The translations under genes and the position numbers were made by a program. The notes below the pieces were generated by a model, which worked only from the letters and a program-made list of their open reading frames with translations, was not told the origin of the DNA and did no database searches. Positions 3,609 to 61,082 of a stretch of 64,000 nucleotides of DNA are shown here, piece after piece. Source of the stretch: Clostridia bacterium (GTDB taxonomy: Bacteria; Bacillota; Clostridia; Lachnospirales; Cellulosilyticaceae); NCBI GenBank assembly GCA_029239755.1, contig JARBUI010000001.1, positions 124,001-188,000 on the forward strand, read 5' to 3'. Each line of letters starts with the position of its first letter. Position 1 is the first letter of the stretch.

Positions 3609-3680
3609 AATATGAGCATATGTAACTATTTACCATTTATCTCTTTAAATAACAATAAATGATTTTAGCTTAGTGCTGTC

Positions 3681-3787
3681 ATCTTCTTTCATCCAGACTG
3701 TACTGTTGGCTTCGGAATTTAACCGAATCTGCCTTACGGCTCGCGGGCTTTAACCGCCAGTGGGGAATTTCACCCCGCCCTGAAGAT
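3681..3787 (-). promoter_or_regulatory. FMN riboswitch (RFN element)
   Basis: Read on the minus strand, the region contains the conserved RFN blocks: GGGGUGAAAUUCCCC, GGCGGU, GCCCGCGAGCC, AAUUCCGAAGCC and the closing CUGGAUGAAAGAAG. The P1 helix pairs AUCUUC (plus 3782-3787) with GAAGAU (3681-3686). The 5' strand of P1 overlaps the antiterminator sequence, so P1 formation with FMN and antitermination are mutually exclusive. Expected effect: FMN lowers ribDEBAH transcription. Confidence 0.96.
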
Positions 3788-3809
3788 TTTATTCAATTTG
3801 TTGTTTCTA

Positions 3810-46215: not shown

Positions 46216-47496
46216 TTATTTTGGCATTTCTATTTTAGCTATGCCGCCCATATAAGGTCTTAGCGCCTCTGGTATAATCACTGAGCCATCAGCTTGCTGG
46301 TAATTTTCTAAAATCGCAGCTGTCGTACGTCCAAGAGCTACTCCGCTGCCATTTAAAGTATGCACAAATTGTGCTTTGTCTTTAGCATCATTTTTAAATT
46401 TAATGCTTGCACGTCTTGCTTGGAAATCTTCAAAGTTTGAGCAGCTTGATATTTCTACATATCTGTCATAGCTTGGCATCCATACTTCAAGGTCATAGGT
46501 CATTGCAGAACTAAAACCAAGATCTCCTGTGCAAAGTCTTACAACTCTATAAGGAAGTCCTAATGATTTAAGCACATCTTCTGCATCATTAGTAAGTTTT
46601 TCCAGCTCTTCATAAGATTCTTCTGGTTTTGCAAATTTAACGAGTTCTACTTTATTAAACTGATGCTGACGGATAATACCTCTTGTATCTCTGCCTGCTG
46701 AGCCAGCTTCAGCTCTGAAGCATGCTGTATAAGCACAATGTTTAATCGTGAGCTCATTTCCTGAAAGAATTTGTTCTCTGTACATATTTGTAACTGGAAC
46801 TTCTGCTGTTGGAACTAGAAAATAATCTGTCCCTTGAATTTTAAATGCATCTTCCTCAAATTTTGGAAGCTGCCCAGTACCTGTCATACTTTTTCTATTA
46901 ACCATAAAAGGAGGGAATATCTCTGTATAACCATGTTTATCTACATGCATATCAAGCATGAAGTTCATGAGCGCTCTCTCAAGTCTTGCTCCTAGTCCCT
47001 TATAGAATACAAATCTTGAGCCAGTTACTTTACCTGCTTTTTCAAAATCCAGTATATCTAAACCTTCTCCAATATCCCAGTGTGCTTTAACTTCAAAATC
47101 AAACTTCGGCACTTCTCCCCACTTACGCATTTCTGCATTATCGGCATCACTTGCTCCTACTGGCACTTTAGCATTTGGCAGGTTTGGAAGAGTCATAAGA
47201 ATGACTTCAAGCTTTTCGTCAATTTCTTTTACTTCATTGTCAAGGTTCTTAATTTCATCTGAGAGTTCTTTCATCTCTGTAAAAATGGCTGTTACATCCT
47301 TGCCTTCTTTTTTCATAACAGGAACTTGCTTTGAAACAACATTTTGTTTGTTTTTAAGCTGCTCAACTTGCTGCAGTAATTCTCTTCTTCTAACATCAAG
47401 TGCCGTAAACTCATCAAGATTATAGCTTCCGCTTCTTGTCCCAAGAGCTTTTTTTACACCTTCTAGATCTGAACGTAATAATTTAATATCTAACAT
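46216..47496 (-). CDS. serS: Seryl-tRNA synthetase
   Basis: A class II aminoacyl-tRNA synthetase of 426 residues. The N-terminal tRNA-binding coiled coil covers about 30-105, then the catalytic domain with the serine-site TAEVPVTN segment, motif 2 ([21 protein letters not shown]) and motif 3 ([16 protein letters not shown]). ATG 47496 is chosen over an in-frame GTG three codons earlier. Controlled by the T-box leader directly upstream. Confidence 0.97.
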
Positions 47497-47566
47497 ATCC
47501 TTCACCTCTTCGTATAGTATGTCTTATTAAGAATACTGACAAGCCCACAGGCTTGCCCATGCAACG

Positions 47567-47765
47567 CAAAAAAGTCCTTTTATTCATATAAGCATGAATA
47601 AAAGGACGGATGAACCCGTGGTGCCACCTTTGTTTATTAGTAGAGTAACTACTAACCTTGTAAGCTGCTATAAAGGGCAACTCCCTTCTGATTTATCACC
47701 AGAGACTCCAAAAGCAGAACACCTTAGCCTGTTTACTAGTTTGCACCTGCCACTAGCTCTCTGAA
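47567..47765 (-). promoter_or_regulatory. T-box leader of serS with terminator
   Basis: On the minus strand the conserved T-box block AGGTGGCACCACGGG (near plus 47610-47625) precedes a terminator with a perfect 14-bp stem (47574-47587 with 47594-47607) and a U-run. Stem I is closed by CAGAGA/TCTCTG. A serine specifier (AGU, overlapping UCU) sits at the base of its 3' side; which one is read cannot be settled by eye. Uncharged tRNA-Ser should favour antitermination. Confidence 0.92.
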
Positions 47766-47824
47766 AAACATTTCTAAAGCTTTTCTTTTATCATCGTCAT
47801 AATATTAAGTATACAATTGGTTAT

Positions 47825-47853
47825 ATTATAAAATATACTCAGTTAAAAATCAA
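47825..47853 (-). promoter_or_regulatory. Promoter of the serS T-box transcript
   Basis: Minus-strand TTGATT (plus 47848-47853) and TATAAT (47825-47830) with a 17-nt spacer, about 60 nt upstream of stem I. Confidence 0.75.
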
Positions 47854-47904
47854 GGAAGCTAATTTATTTTTTAAAGTTTGTATAAAATCAATTTTTACTG
47901 TTCA

Positions 47905-47990
47905 TACTACTATCGTACCAAGTGTGAGGTACATCGCTAAATCCCCCCTCAACCTAGGTTTCTCCCCCTGAAGCCTAGGTCCTTTTTTTA
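47905..47990 (+). ncRNA. Candidate C-rich small RNA
   Basis: A plus-strand transcript ending in a strong terminator is implied although no plus-strand gene lies upstream. The terminator has an 11-bp stem (47952-47962 with 47970-47980, one G-U), a 7-nt loop UCCCCCU and a T7 run. An unpaired UCCCCCCUC precedes it (near 47942-47950). Both C-runs can pair with Shine-Dalgarno sequences, as in C-rich sRNAs of Firmicutes. No convincing promoter was found, so the 5' end is a guess. Confidence 0.45.
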
Positions 47991-48018
47991 TTATTTTACA
48001 CATCAGCCTATGATGAGC

Positions 48019-48456
48019 TTAAAGCGTCTTTGAAATGACCCACTTATATAGAAAAGACTGTTTATTATAATCCATAGGTGGATGATCGGGAAAGAGCCTT
48101 ATCATTCTTATACTATAGACACCAACCACAATAGCTACCAGTATTATCCAAAACATCCTGTTGCTATGATTATCTTTAAATATCCGTCCTTTTAAAAAAA
48201 CTCCTATGATAACAACAAAAGGTACAATCCAAAAAAGTGGATGCCAACCGAAAGCTGCTTTAAAATCCATTTTTAAAAAAGAAAGCCAGGCTCTAGTTAA
48301 GCCACATCCGGGGCATGGTATACCTATTGTGTATTTAACGATACATTTAATATCTGATACATAAAACAGAAGTGTTGCAATGCCTATTAAGGCTATAGTA
48401 ACAAAAAAAACCTTTAAGTTTTGTTTAATTAGTTGTCTAATGTTTTCTTTTAGCAT
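48019..48456 (-). CDS. DUF2752 membrane protein
   Basis: A 145-residue protein with about three transmembrane helices. The DUF2752 signature is clear: IPCPGCGLTRAWLSFLKMDFKAAFGWHPLF. Function unknown in the family. The final residues form a short cytoplasmic tail. A single-gene unit. Confidence 0.88.
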   Translation of the reverse strand: MLKENIRQLIKQNLKVFFVTIALIGIATLLFYVSDIKCIVKYTIGIPCPGCGLTRAWLSFLKMDFKAAFGWHPLFWIVPFVVIIGVFLKGRIFKDNHSNRMFWIILVAIVVGVYSIRMIRLFPDHPPMDYNKQSFLYKWVISKTL

Positions 48457-48855: not shown

Positions 48856-51471
48856 ATGTCTGAAAACAAAAAAAGCAAAACTGAAACACCTGCAGTAGAT
48901 GCAGCAGCAATGGTTAATACTCTCGTTAAAAATGCAGAAAAAGCACTAGACGCATACATGTCACTTTCTCAAGAACAAATTGATGAAATTACAAAAGCCA
49001 TGGCTCTTGCTGGTTTATCTGAACAAATGTATCTTGCAAAACTTGCTGTCGAGGAAACTGGCCGTGGTATATTTGAAGATAAGGTAACAAAAAATATTTT
49101 TGCAACTGAATATATCTACCACAGCATTAAATATGATAAAACAGTAGGTGTAATCGATGAAAATGAAGATGAAGGGTATATGGAAATCGCAGAGCCAGTA
49201 GGTATAGTAGCCGGTGTTACACCTGTAACCAACCCAACTTCTACAACAATGTTCAAAGCTATTATTAGTACAAAAACCCGTAACCCAATTATCTTCGGGT
49301 TCCATCCATCAGCTCAAAAGTGTTCGTCTGAAGCCGCTCGTATTTTAAGAGATGCTGCTGTTAAAGCAGGGGCTCCTGAGCACTGTATCCAGTGGATTGA
49401 ATATCCATCTATTGACGCAACTAACGCGCTTATGAATCATCCAAATGTTGCTATGATCCTTGCAACAGGCGGTTCTGGTATGGTTCGTGCAGCATACTCA
49501 TCAGGTAAGCCTGCGCTTGGTGTTGGCCCTGGTAATGTACCTGCTTTTATTGAAAAAACTGCTAACCTTGAAAGATCACTTACAGATCTTATCTTATCAA
49601 AATCATTTGATAATGGTATGATATGTGCTTCTGAACAAGCAGCTATTATAGAAGCTCCTATTTATGACAAAGCCGTTGAATTTATGAAAAAACAAGGATG
49701 CTACTTTGCCACAAAAGAAGAAGTTCAAAAGCTTGAACCTGTTGTTATTAACCCAGTTAAGCAAATGGTTAATGCTGATATCGTAGGTAAATATCCTTAT
49801 GAAATAGCAGCTCTTGCAGGTATTACTATCCCTAAAGAAACCAAAGTACTTTGCTGTGAAATAGAGGGTGTTGGATCTGCGTATCCATTATCTCGTGAAA
49901 AACTTTCTCCAGTCCTTGCTGTTGTGAAAGCCAAAGATGCTGAAGAAGGTATTCAAATGGCTGAAACTATGGTAGAACTTGGTGGTCTTGGTCACTCATC
50001 TGTTATTCACTCTAATGATGATGCTATTATCGAAGACTTTTCAAAAAGATTAAAAACAGGACGTATTATCGTTAACTCTCCTTCAACTCATGGAGCAATT
50101 GGTGATATTTACAATACAAATATGCCATCTCTGACACTTGGCTGTGGTTCTTATGGTCGTAACTCTACGACATCTAACGTAACAGCAGTAAACTTAATTA
50201 ATAAGAAAAGGGTGGCGAAGAGACGCGTGAATATGCAATGGTTTAAGATTCCAGAAAGAATTTACTTTGAACAAGGTTCTGTTCAATATTTAGCTAAAAT
50301 GCCAGATATCTCCCGCGTACTAATTGTAACAGATCCTATGATGGTACAACTAGGATACGTTGAAAAGGTAACTTACCAACTCAATAAAAATTCAAATAAA
50401 GTAGCAATAGAAATCTTCAGTGACGTTGAACCTGATCCAGACCTTGTAACAGTACGTAAAGGCTGTGAAATGATGAGATCTTTCAAACCAGATGTTATCA
50501 TCGCTCTTGGCGGCGGTTCTCCAATAGATGCCGCAAAAGCAATGTGGTTATTCTATGAAAGTCCAGAAGCTGACTTTGTTGGTATGGCTCAAAAATTCTT
50601 AGACATTAGAAAACGTGTTTATAAGTTCCCTAAAATGGGTCACAAATCAAAATTCGTTGCTATTCCGACAACATCAGGTACAGGTTCTGAGGTAACATCT
50701 TTCGCAGTTATTTCTGACCGTTCAAAAAATATGAAATATCCTCTTGCTGACTACGAGCTAACTCCAGACGTGGCAATCATTGACCCTGAGTTTGTAATGA
50801 CTGTTCCAGCTGCAGTAACTGCTGATACAGGTCTTGACGTATTAACTCATGCTATTGAAGCTTATGTATCCATTCTGGCTTCTGATTATACAGATGCACT
50901 TGCAATTAAAGCTATTCAATTAGTATTTGAATATTTACCACGTTCTTATAAATTTGGTGCAAAAGACCCTGTAGCAAGAGAAAAAATGCACAATGCTTCT
51001 TGTATTGCCGGAATGGCCTTTACAAATGCATTCCTTGGAATTAATCACTCACTTGCTCATAAGTTAGGAGCAGAGTTCCACATTCCTCATGGCCGTGCAA
51101 ATGCAATACTTCTTCCACATGTTATTGCATACAATGGCGTAACAACACCAACGAAGTTTACAAGCTTCCCTAAATACGAAAAATTTATTGCTCCAGAAAA
51201 GTATGCAGAGATCGCACGTAGCCTTGGACTTAAATCTTCTACTCCTGAAGAAGGTGTAAAATCACTTATTAAAGCTATCCAGGACCTAATGAAAGAGCTT
51301 AATGTGCCTGCAACAATTAAAGAAACAGGTATTGATGAAAAAACTTACATGGCAGCTATCGGTGATCTAGCTTATAAAGCATTTGAAGATCAATGCACAA
51401 CAGCTAATCCTCGTCTTCCAAAAGTAATTGAACTAGAAGAGCTTTATAAAAAAGCCTATACTGGCAAATAA
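48856..51471 (+). CDS. adhE: Bifunctional acetaldehyde-CoA / alcohol dehydrogenase
   Basis: An 871-residue fusion reducing acetyl-CoA to acetaldehyde and then ethanol with NADH. N-terminal aldehyde dehydrogenase domain (about 10-440) with the catalytic Cys in [11 protein letters not shown]; linker with [23 protein letters not shown]-terminal iron alcohol dehydrogenase (about 455-870) with the [13 protein letters not shown] nucleotide motif and the iron-binding [18 protein letters not shown] segment. AGGAGGAG before ATG 48856. Its codon use looks more biased than its neighbours, as expected for an abundant fermentation enzyme. Confidence 0.97.
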
Positions 51472-60924: not shown

Positions 60925-60950
60925 CAAGTACACTAAGTTAAATACTACTC

Positions 60951-61051
60951 CTTATCTTTCAGAAACCTTGTTCTGTTGGATTTAGCACCGTACATCTTCA
61001 TGCGGTTGCTGAGATATCATAGGGCCAAGTCCCTCCATCTCTCATGATAAG
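60951..61051 (-). promoter_or_regulatory. SAM-I riboswitch (S-box)
   Basis: Read on the minus strand: P1 CUUAUC (plus 61046-61051) with GAUAAG (60951-60956), AUGAGAGAUGGAGGGACU, the GGCCCUAUGA segment, CAGCAACC and the closing AAGGUUUCUGAAAGAUAAGGAG are all S-box elements. High SAM should promote the terminator at 60888-60924, reducing downstream metQ. Aptamer intact by eye. Confidence 0.95.
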
Positions 61052-61082
61052 TTTTTATTATTCGATTTTCTTATTGATTGTT

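Follow-up and report, generated by a model that had tools for sequence, protein, structure and literature searches.

The stretch of DNA analysed here, hereafter the window, comprises 64,000 nt of contig JARBUI010000001.1 (positions 124,001-188,000, forward strand), and all coordinates refer to it. Around its position 48,000, the minus strand carries serS (46216-47505), the T-box of serS (47599-47803) and a DUF2752 gene (48019-48456), followed on the plus strand by adhE, which starts at 48856. Between the T-box and the DUF2752 gene lies a plus-strand stem-loop (47952-47980), for which the original prediction had proposed an 11-bp stem, a loop with a C-only core, a T7 run and a second unpaired C-run upstream. 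All four features were recovered: the stem arms ACCTAGGTTTC and GAAGCCTAGGT form 11 pairs around the 7-nt loop TCCCCCT (UCCCCCU in the RNA), CC follows, and a T7 tract (47983-47989) completes an intrinsic terminator, while the second C-run is a C6 stretch (47943-47948) left unpaired in the predicted fold. As had also been stated, no plus-strand gene ends just 5' of the element, both neighbours being encoded on the minus strand. A terminator acting on the minus strand, already dismissed in the original prediction, is unlikely because the sequence that follows the stem on that strand, TTGAGGGGGGATTTAGCG, has no T-run. Elsewhere in the window, an FMN riboswitch (3677-3791) and a SAM riboswitch (60949-61053), both on the minus strand, scored above the Rfam thresholds.

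Two parts of the element had been overlooked, a 5' hairpin (47915-47932) and a promoter (47880-47909). With these included, the predicted transcript is an sRNA of about 75 nt on the plus strand (47915-47989), supported by its fold, its identity within the family and two covariance models, R1 and R2; its start is inferred about 6-8 nt 3' of the -10 element. The 5' hairpin, GUACC-AAGUGUGA-GGUAC, has a stem of 5 bp that is predicted by folding and backed by covariation across the order, as is the terminator hairpin. The two are joined by the 19-nt linker AUCGCUAAAUCCCCCCUCA (47933-47951), which contains the motif C6UCA, is unpaired in the folds, is nearly invariant in the family and is presumed to be the pairing region. 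An 80-nt segment (47914-47993) folds at -23.5 kcal/mol, compared to a mean of -11.4 kcal/mol for dinucleotide shuffles (z = -5.3; none of 200 shuffles equalled it). The C-rich stretches, C6 in the linker and C5 in the terminator loop, are both unpaired in the folds and conserved.

The promoter is of the forespore type, with GTATA (47880-47884) and CATACTA (47903-47909) separated by an 18-nt spacer, and the 5' hairpin begins six bases further on. It is an exact match to the published sigma-G consensus of B. subtilis, GNATA...CAWAMTA, and overlaps a weaker sigma-F-like site (sigma-F consensus GTATA/GGNAANAMTR; PMC3416734). Similar elements precede sporulation genes of Epulopiscium, a relative (PMC3416734). 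The position of the promoter relative to the RNA is constant in nearly all members of the window's family, some of which have GGCAATACTA, an exact sigma-F -10 element. A strict sigma-F or sigma-G site was found in 28 of 56 members, compared to 2.7% of controls. In some other families the promoter is shifted upstream, and the 5' domain is longer to match. Judged by these consensus matches, exact for sigma-G in the window and for sigma-F in relatives, the promoter would be read by sigma-F and sigma-G. In the Vallitalea members (L071-L077, family f22), the 5' stem arms GTACC/GGTAC are kept but enclose a longer insertion, and the distance to the sigma-F-like promoter upstream is correspondingly greater.

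The original prediction had named absence of the hairpin from close relatives as a finding that would count against it. Every one of the 23 relatives searched from the window's family carries the element, at 91-99% identity, which with the window's own genome makes 24 of 24. R1, built from 24 sequences, matched in 65 of the 392 genomes of the order, and the broader model R2 matched in 89 of the 392, with one copy per genome and 45 of 174 genera represented; many of these 89 carriers had not been used to build R2. A pattern scan of genome contigs, which also gave some probable chance matches in unrelated phyla, added names to the carriers, among them Cellulosilyticum ruminicola, Sporanaerobium hydrogeniformans, Defluviitalea phaphyphila, Vallitalea and termite-gut Defluviitaleaceae, all of them Lachnospirales. 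When R2 was run across the class (392 genomes, E<=0.001), the only match was in the window's own genome; few genomes from the carrying families were in that sample, and therefore it does not set a firm outer limit. No second copy of the element was found in the genome with the pattern TCCCCCNTCAA. Partial 3' copies, consisting of TTCTCCCCCTGAAACCTAGGTC and a T-run, were seen at two further loci, L096 (genome G006, approximately 1501-1528) and L097 (genome G022, approximately 551-578). Both are preceded by the same sequence of about 160 nt, as if a mobile element had entered the terminator hairpin; they look like copies that have decayed or been interrupted, and the member counts do not include them.

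Conservation and covariation in relatives, proposed earlier as a check, bore the prediction out: the linker is invariant, and across the order both stems show compensatory changes. Over the family the 5' hairpin and the linker are both nearly invariant; the 5' stem does not vary there at all and is therefore uninformative on covariation at that level, whereas across the order all five of its pairs show double changes. In an alignment of 39 sequences fitted to the model, 97% of the cells were paired, double changes occurred in 15 of 16 pairs, and the covariation score was 0.629, compared to 0.199 for shuffled and at most 0.124 for slid versions. Moreover, distant members folded singly gave the same two hairpins with an open linker. 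Terminator-like hairpins are frequent in this region (7 found, 1.6 expected), which would fit a hairpin that arose by chance or is no more than an orphan terminator; given the conserved promoter, 5' hairpin and linker, the compensatory changes, and the presence of the element throughout the family and in 89 of the 392 order genomes, we regard that explanation as having next to no probability. The element represents a genuine sRNA family, one that the databases and open papers searched do not describe.

The genes around the RNA vary between families. In about 17 loci serS is the divergent upstream neighbour, and in about 14 adhE follows downstream in the same orientation; the recurrence of these neighbours in many loci shows descent from one locus. 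The same recurrence would be expected if the RNA served adhE in cis, as a leader or attenuator, or arose as a by-product of the T-box region of serS. However, in the window the minus-strand DUF2752 gene separates it from adhE, 870 nt away, and the RNA has a promoter and a terminator of its own. Furthermore, in many members neither serS nor adhE occurs within 1.5 kb, yet the RNA and its promoter are kept, and many members in family f4 have unrelated neighbours, which implies that the RNA is not the leader of either gene; we therefore consider a leader or by-product very unlikely. An independent plus-strand C-rich sRNA, as originally proposed, is supported by family-wide presence, covariation, the conserved promoter and the changing neighbours. 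By its sequence features, namely its own promoter, an intrinsic terminator and no fixed neighbour, the element is a predicted stand-alone sRNA gene.

No Rfam family matched the RNA, a relaxed threshold giving only a partial T-box fragment. The closest analogue, in regulation and in C-richness, is CsfG (S547) of B. subtilis, with which it shares a sigma-F/G-type promoter, unpaired C-rich stretches, an intrinsic terminator and occurrence in spore formers. CsfG has CU-rich stretches in its loops and between its helices, and its conservation in endospore formers has been reported (PMC3574147, PMC8216469); PMC8216469 and PMC9147052 report no identified mRNA target for it. The RNA might thus be a clostridial CsfG diverged beyond recognition, an idea that the same inferred regulators and the shared C-rich character would favour. 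On the other hand, model RF00516 (ylbH, whose reverse strand is CsfG) gave no match on either strand of 47750-48100 at E<=5 and nothing above the cut-off anywhere in the genome, while one of the controls, which included B. subtilis, scored above the cut-off. The CsfG consensus, read indirectly from the RF00516 model, extends over about 122 nt and forms three hairpins, with a CGUUUCCCCAU loop (UUUCCCCAU when written as the architecture looked for here), a UUUCUCCUCU linker and a UUU-loop terminator in the ylbG-ylbH locus. In contrast, the Lachnospirales RNA has two hairpins, the linker AUCGCUAAAUCCCCCCUCA with its C6UCA motif and a C5 terminator loop, and its neighbours are serS, DUF2752 and adhE. 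Since architecture, sequence and locus all differ, a diverged clostridial CsfG appears improbable.

RoxS/RsaE and FsrA likewise have C-rich regions in unpaired parts, and one such region of RoxS blocks a ribosome-binding site (PMC4409812). However, these sRNAs are controlled by ResDE/NO and by Fur, respectively, rather than by sporulation sigma factors, and the Rfam search of the window matched neither. The sRNAs linked to sporulation in Clostridioides difficile resemble the RNA, by description, as small RNAs acting on sporulation in Clostridia; PMC10267692 describes them at sporulation initiation and ties them to Hfq.

A sigG profile match was found in 87 of 89 carriers of the RNA, compared to 192 of 303 non-carriers (Fisher p ~1e-12, a value that ignores shared ancestry), and the association is partly due to that ancestry. 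The two carriers without sigG are a 68%-complete genome and the genome with the weakest R2 match. Within family f22, the RNA is likewise missing from the five genomes listed as lacking sigG, and those listed with sigG carry it. Several large families, and many families in all, have sigG but not the RNA, which implies that it is dispensable for sporulation in general. Together with the promoter, these patterns mark the RNA as very probably a forespore RNA, a link to sporulation that the original prediction had not made; few sRNAs are known to act inside the forespore. The RNA and its promoter are also present in a single-contig genome of the window's family (G012, locus L026) that is probably Epulopiscium sp. 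type B. This bacterium makes live offspring and not spores, and carriage of the RNA there suggests a role beyond resistant spores.

Pairing of the C-rich stretches with Shine-Dalgarno regions is plausible, with one good predicted target. A pattern search returned a candidate pairing site behind sigG, where TATGGGGGG(T)ATTTAGTGATGATG, which takes in both RBS and start codon of a gene in the YlmC/YmxH family (TIGR02888), is predicted to pair with CAUCGCUAAAUCCCCCC of the RNA through 17 bp with one bulge. Because ymxH had been noticed partly through its neighbour, we ranked the RBSs of 425 genes from approximately 464 kb, part of the genome. ymxH came first of the 425 at -29.1 kcal/mol, followed by -23.2 kcal/mol for the next gene, with a mean of -11.0 kcal/mol. 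In four related genomes, in which the spacer sequences differ, the pairing scored -28.2, -26.8, -26.5 and -25.3 kcal/mol. When linkers were shuffled with the C6 run kept, none of 1000 reached the five-genome mean for ymxH; over all 425 genes, shuffled linkers gave some gene at or below -29.1 kcal/mol in 18 of 300 trials. The original prediction had pointed to G-rich ribosome sites as targets, and the prediction for ymxH is strong in five genomes but not outside their subclade: in the other genera and families tested the ymxH pairing is weak or ordinary, though the invariance of the linker reaches further. The idea that ymxH is a universal target was rejected on account of this weak pairing and of the finding that, in the other members of the order examined, mostly no ymxH was found directly behind sigG. 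We therefore treat ymxH as a candidate target in a single subclade.

Poor conservation of the ymxH pairing beyond the subclade would also be expected if the main action of the RNA were to bind a protein or structured partner, or to serve as the sponge of another RNA, and the near-invariance of the 5' hairpin and linker in the family exceeds what variable mRNA targets would need. Nevertheless, the stretches that are both conserved and unpaired consist of C-runs that could pair with G-rich RBSs, the way in which such C-rich regions act in RoxS (PMC4409812), and we give a main action other than mRNA pairing only a minor share of the probability.

In our preferred reading, which we hold to be likely, the element is a stand-alone gene for a trans-acting sRNA of about 75 nt, made in the forespore by sigma-G RNA polymerase, and in relatives also by the sigma-F enzyme. 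Its linker and terminator loop would pair with G-rich ribosome-binding sites and thereby keep chosen mRNAs from being translated. For this organism, the strongest target prediction is the RBS with the start codon of ymxH, a sporulation gene directly behind sigG. In B. subtilis, ymxH is listed in the sigma-E (mother-cell) regulon. It is conceivable, if speculative, that the RNA helps to separate the two sporulating compartments, a sigma-G-dependent RNA in the forespore silencing ymxH, which from its place directly behind sigG would be read through there, and that it may act in live-offspring relatives as well. With its retention in at least 45 Lachnospirales genera, its sigma-F/G-type promoter and a concrete predicted target beside sigG, this sRNA offers a testable way into RNA-based control of the late stages of sporulation in clostridia.

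The region downstream of sigG was also inspected in the genus Cellulosilyticum. There ymxH is apparently frame-broken in one genome (G006, locus L196) and was not found downstream of sigG in another (G020, locus L202); in both, GGGATTTAGCGA, the GGGATTWAG(T/C)GA stretch of the ymxH RBS, remains.
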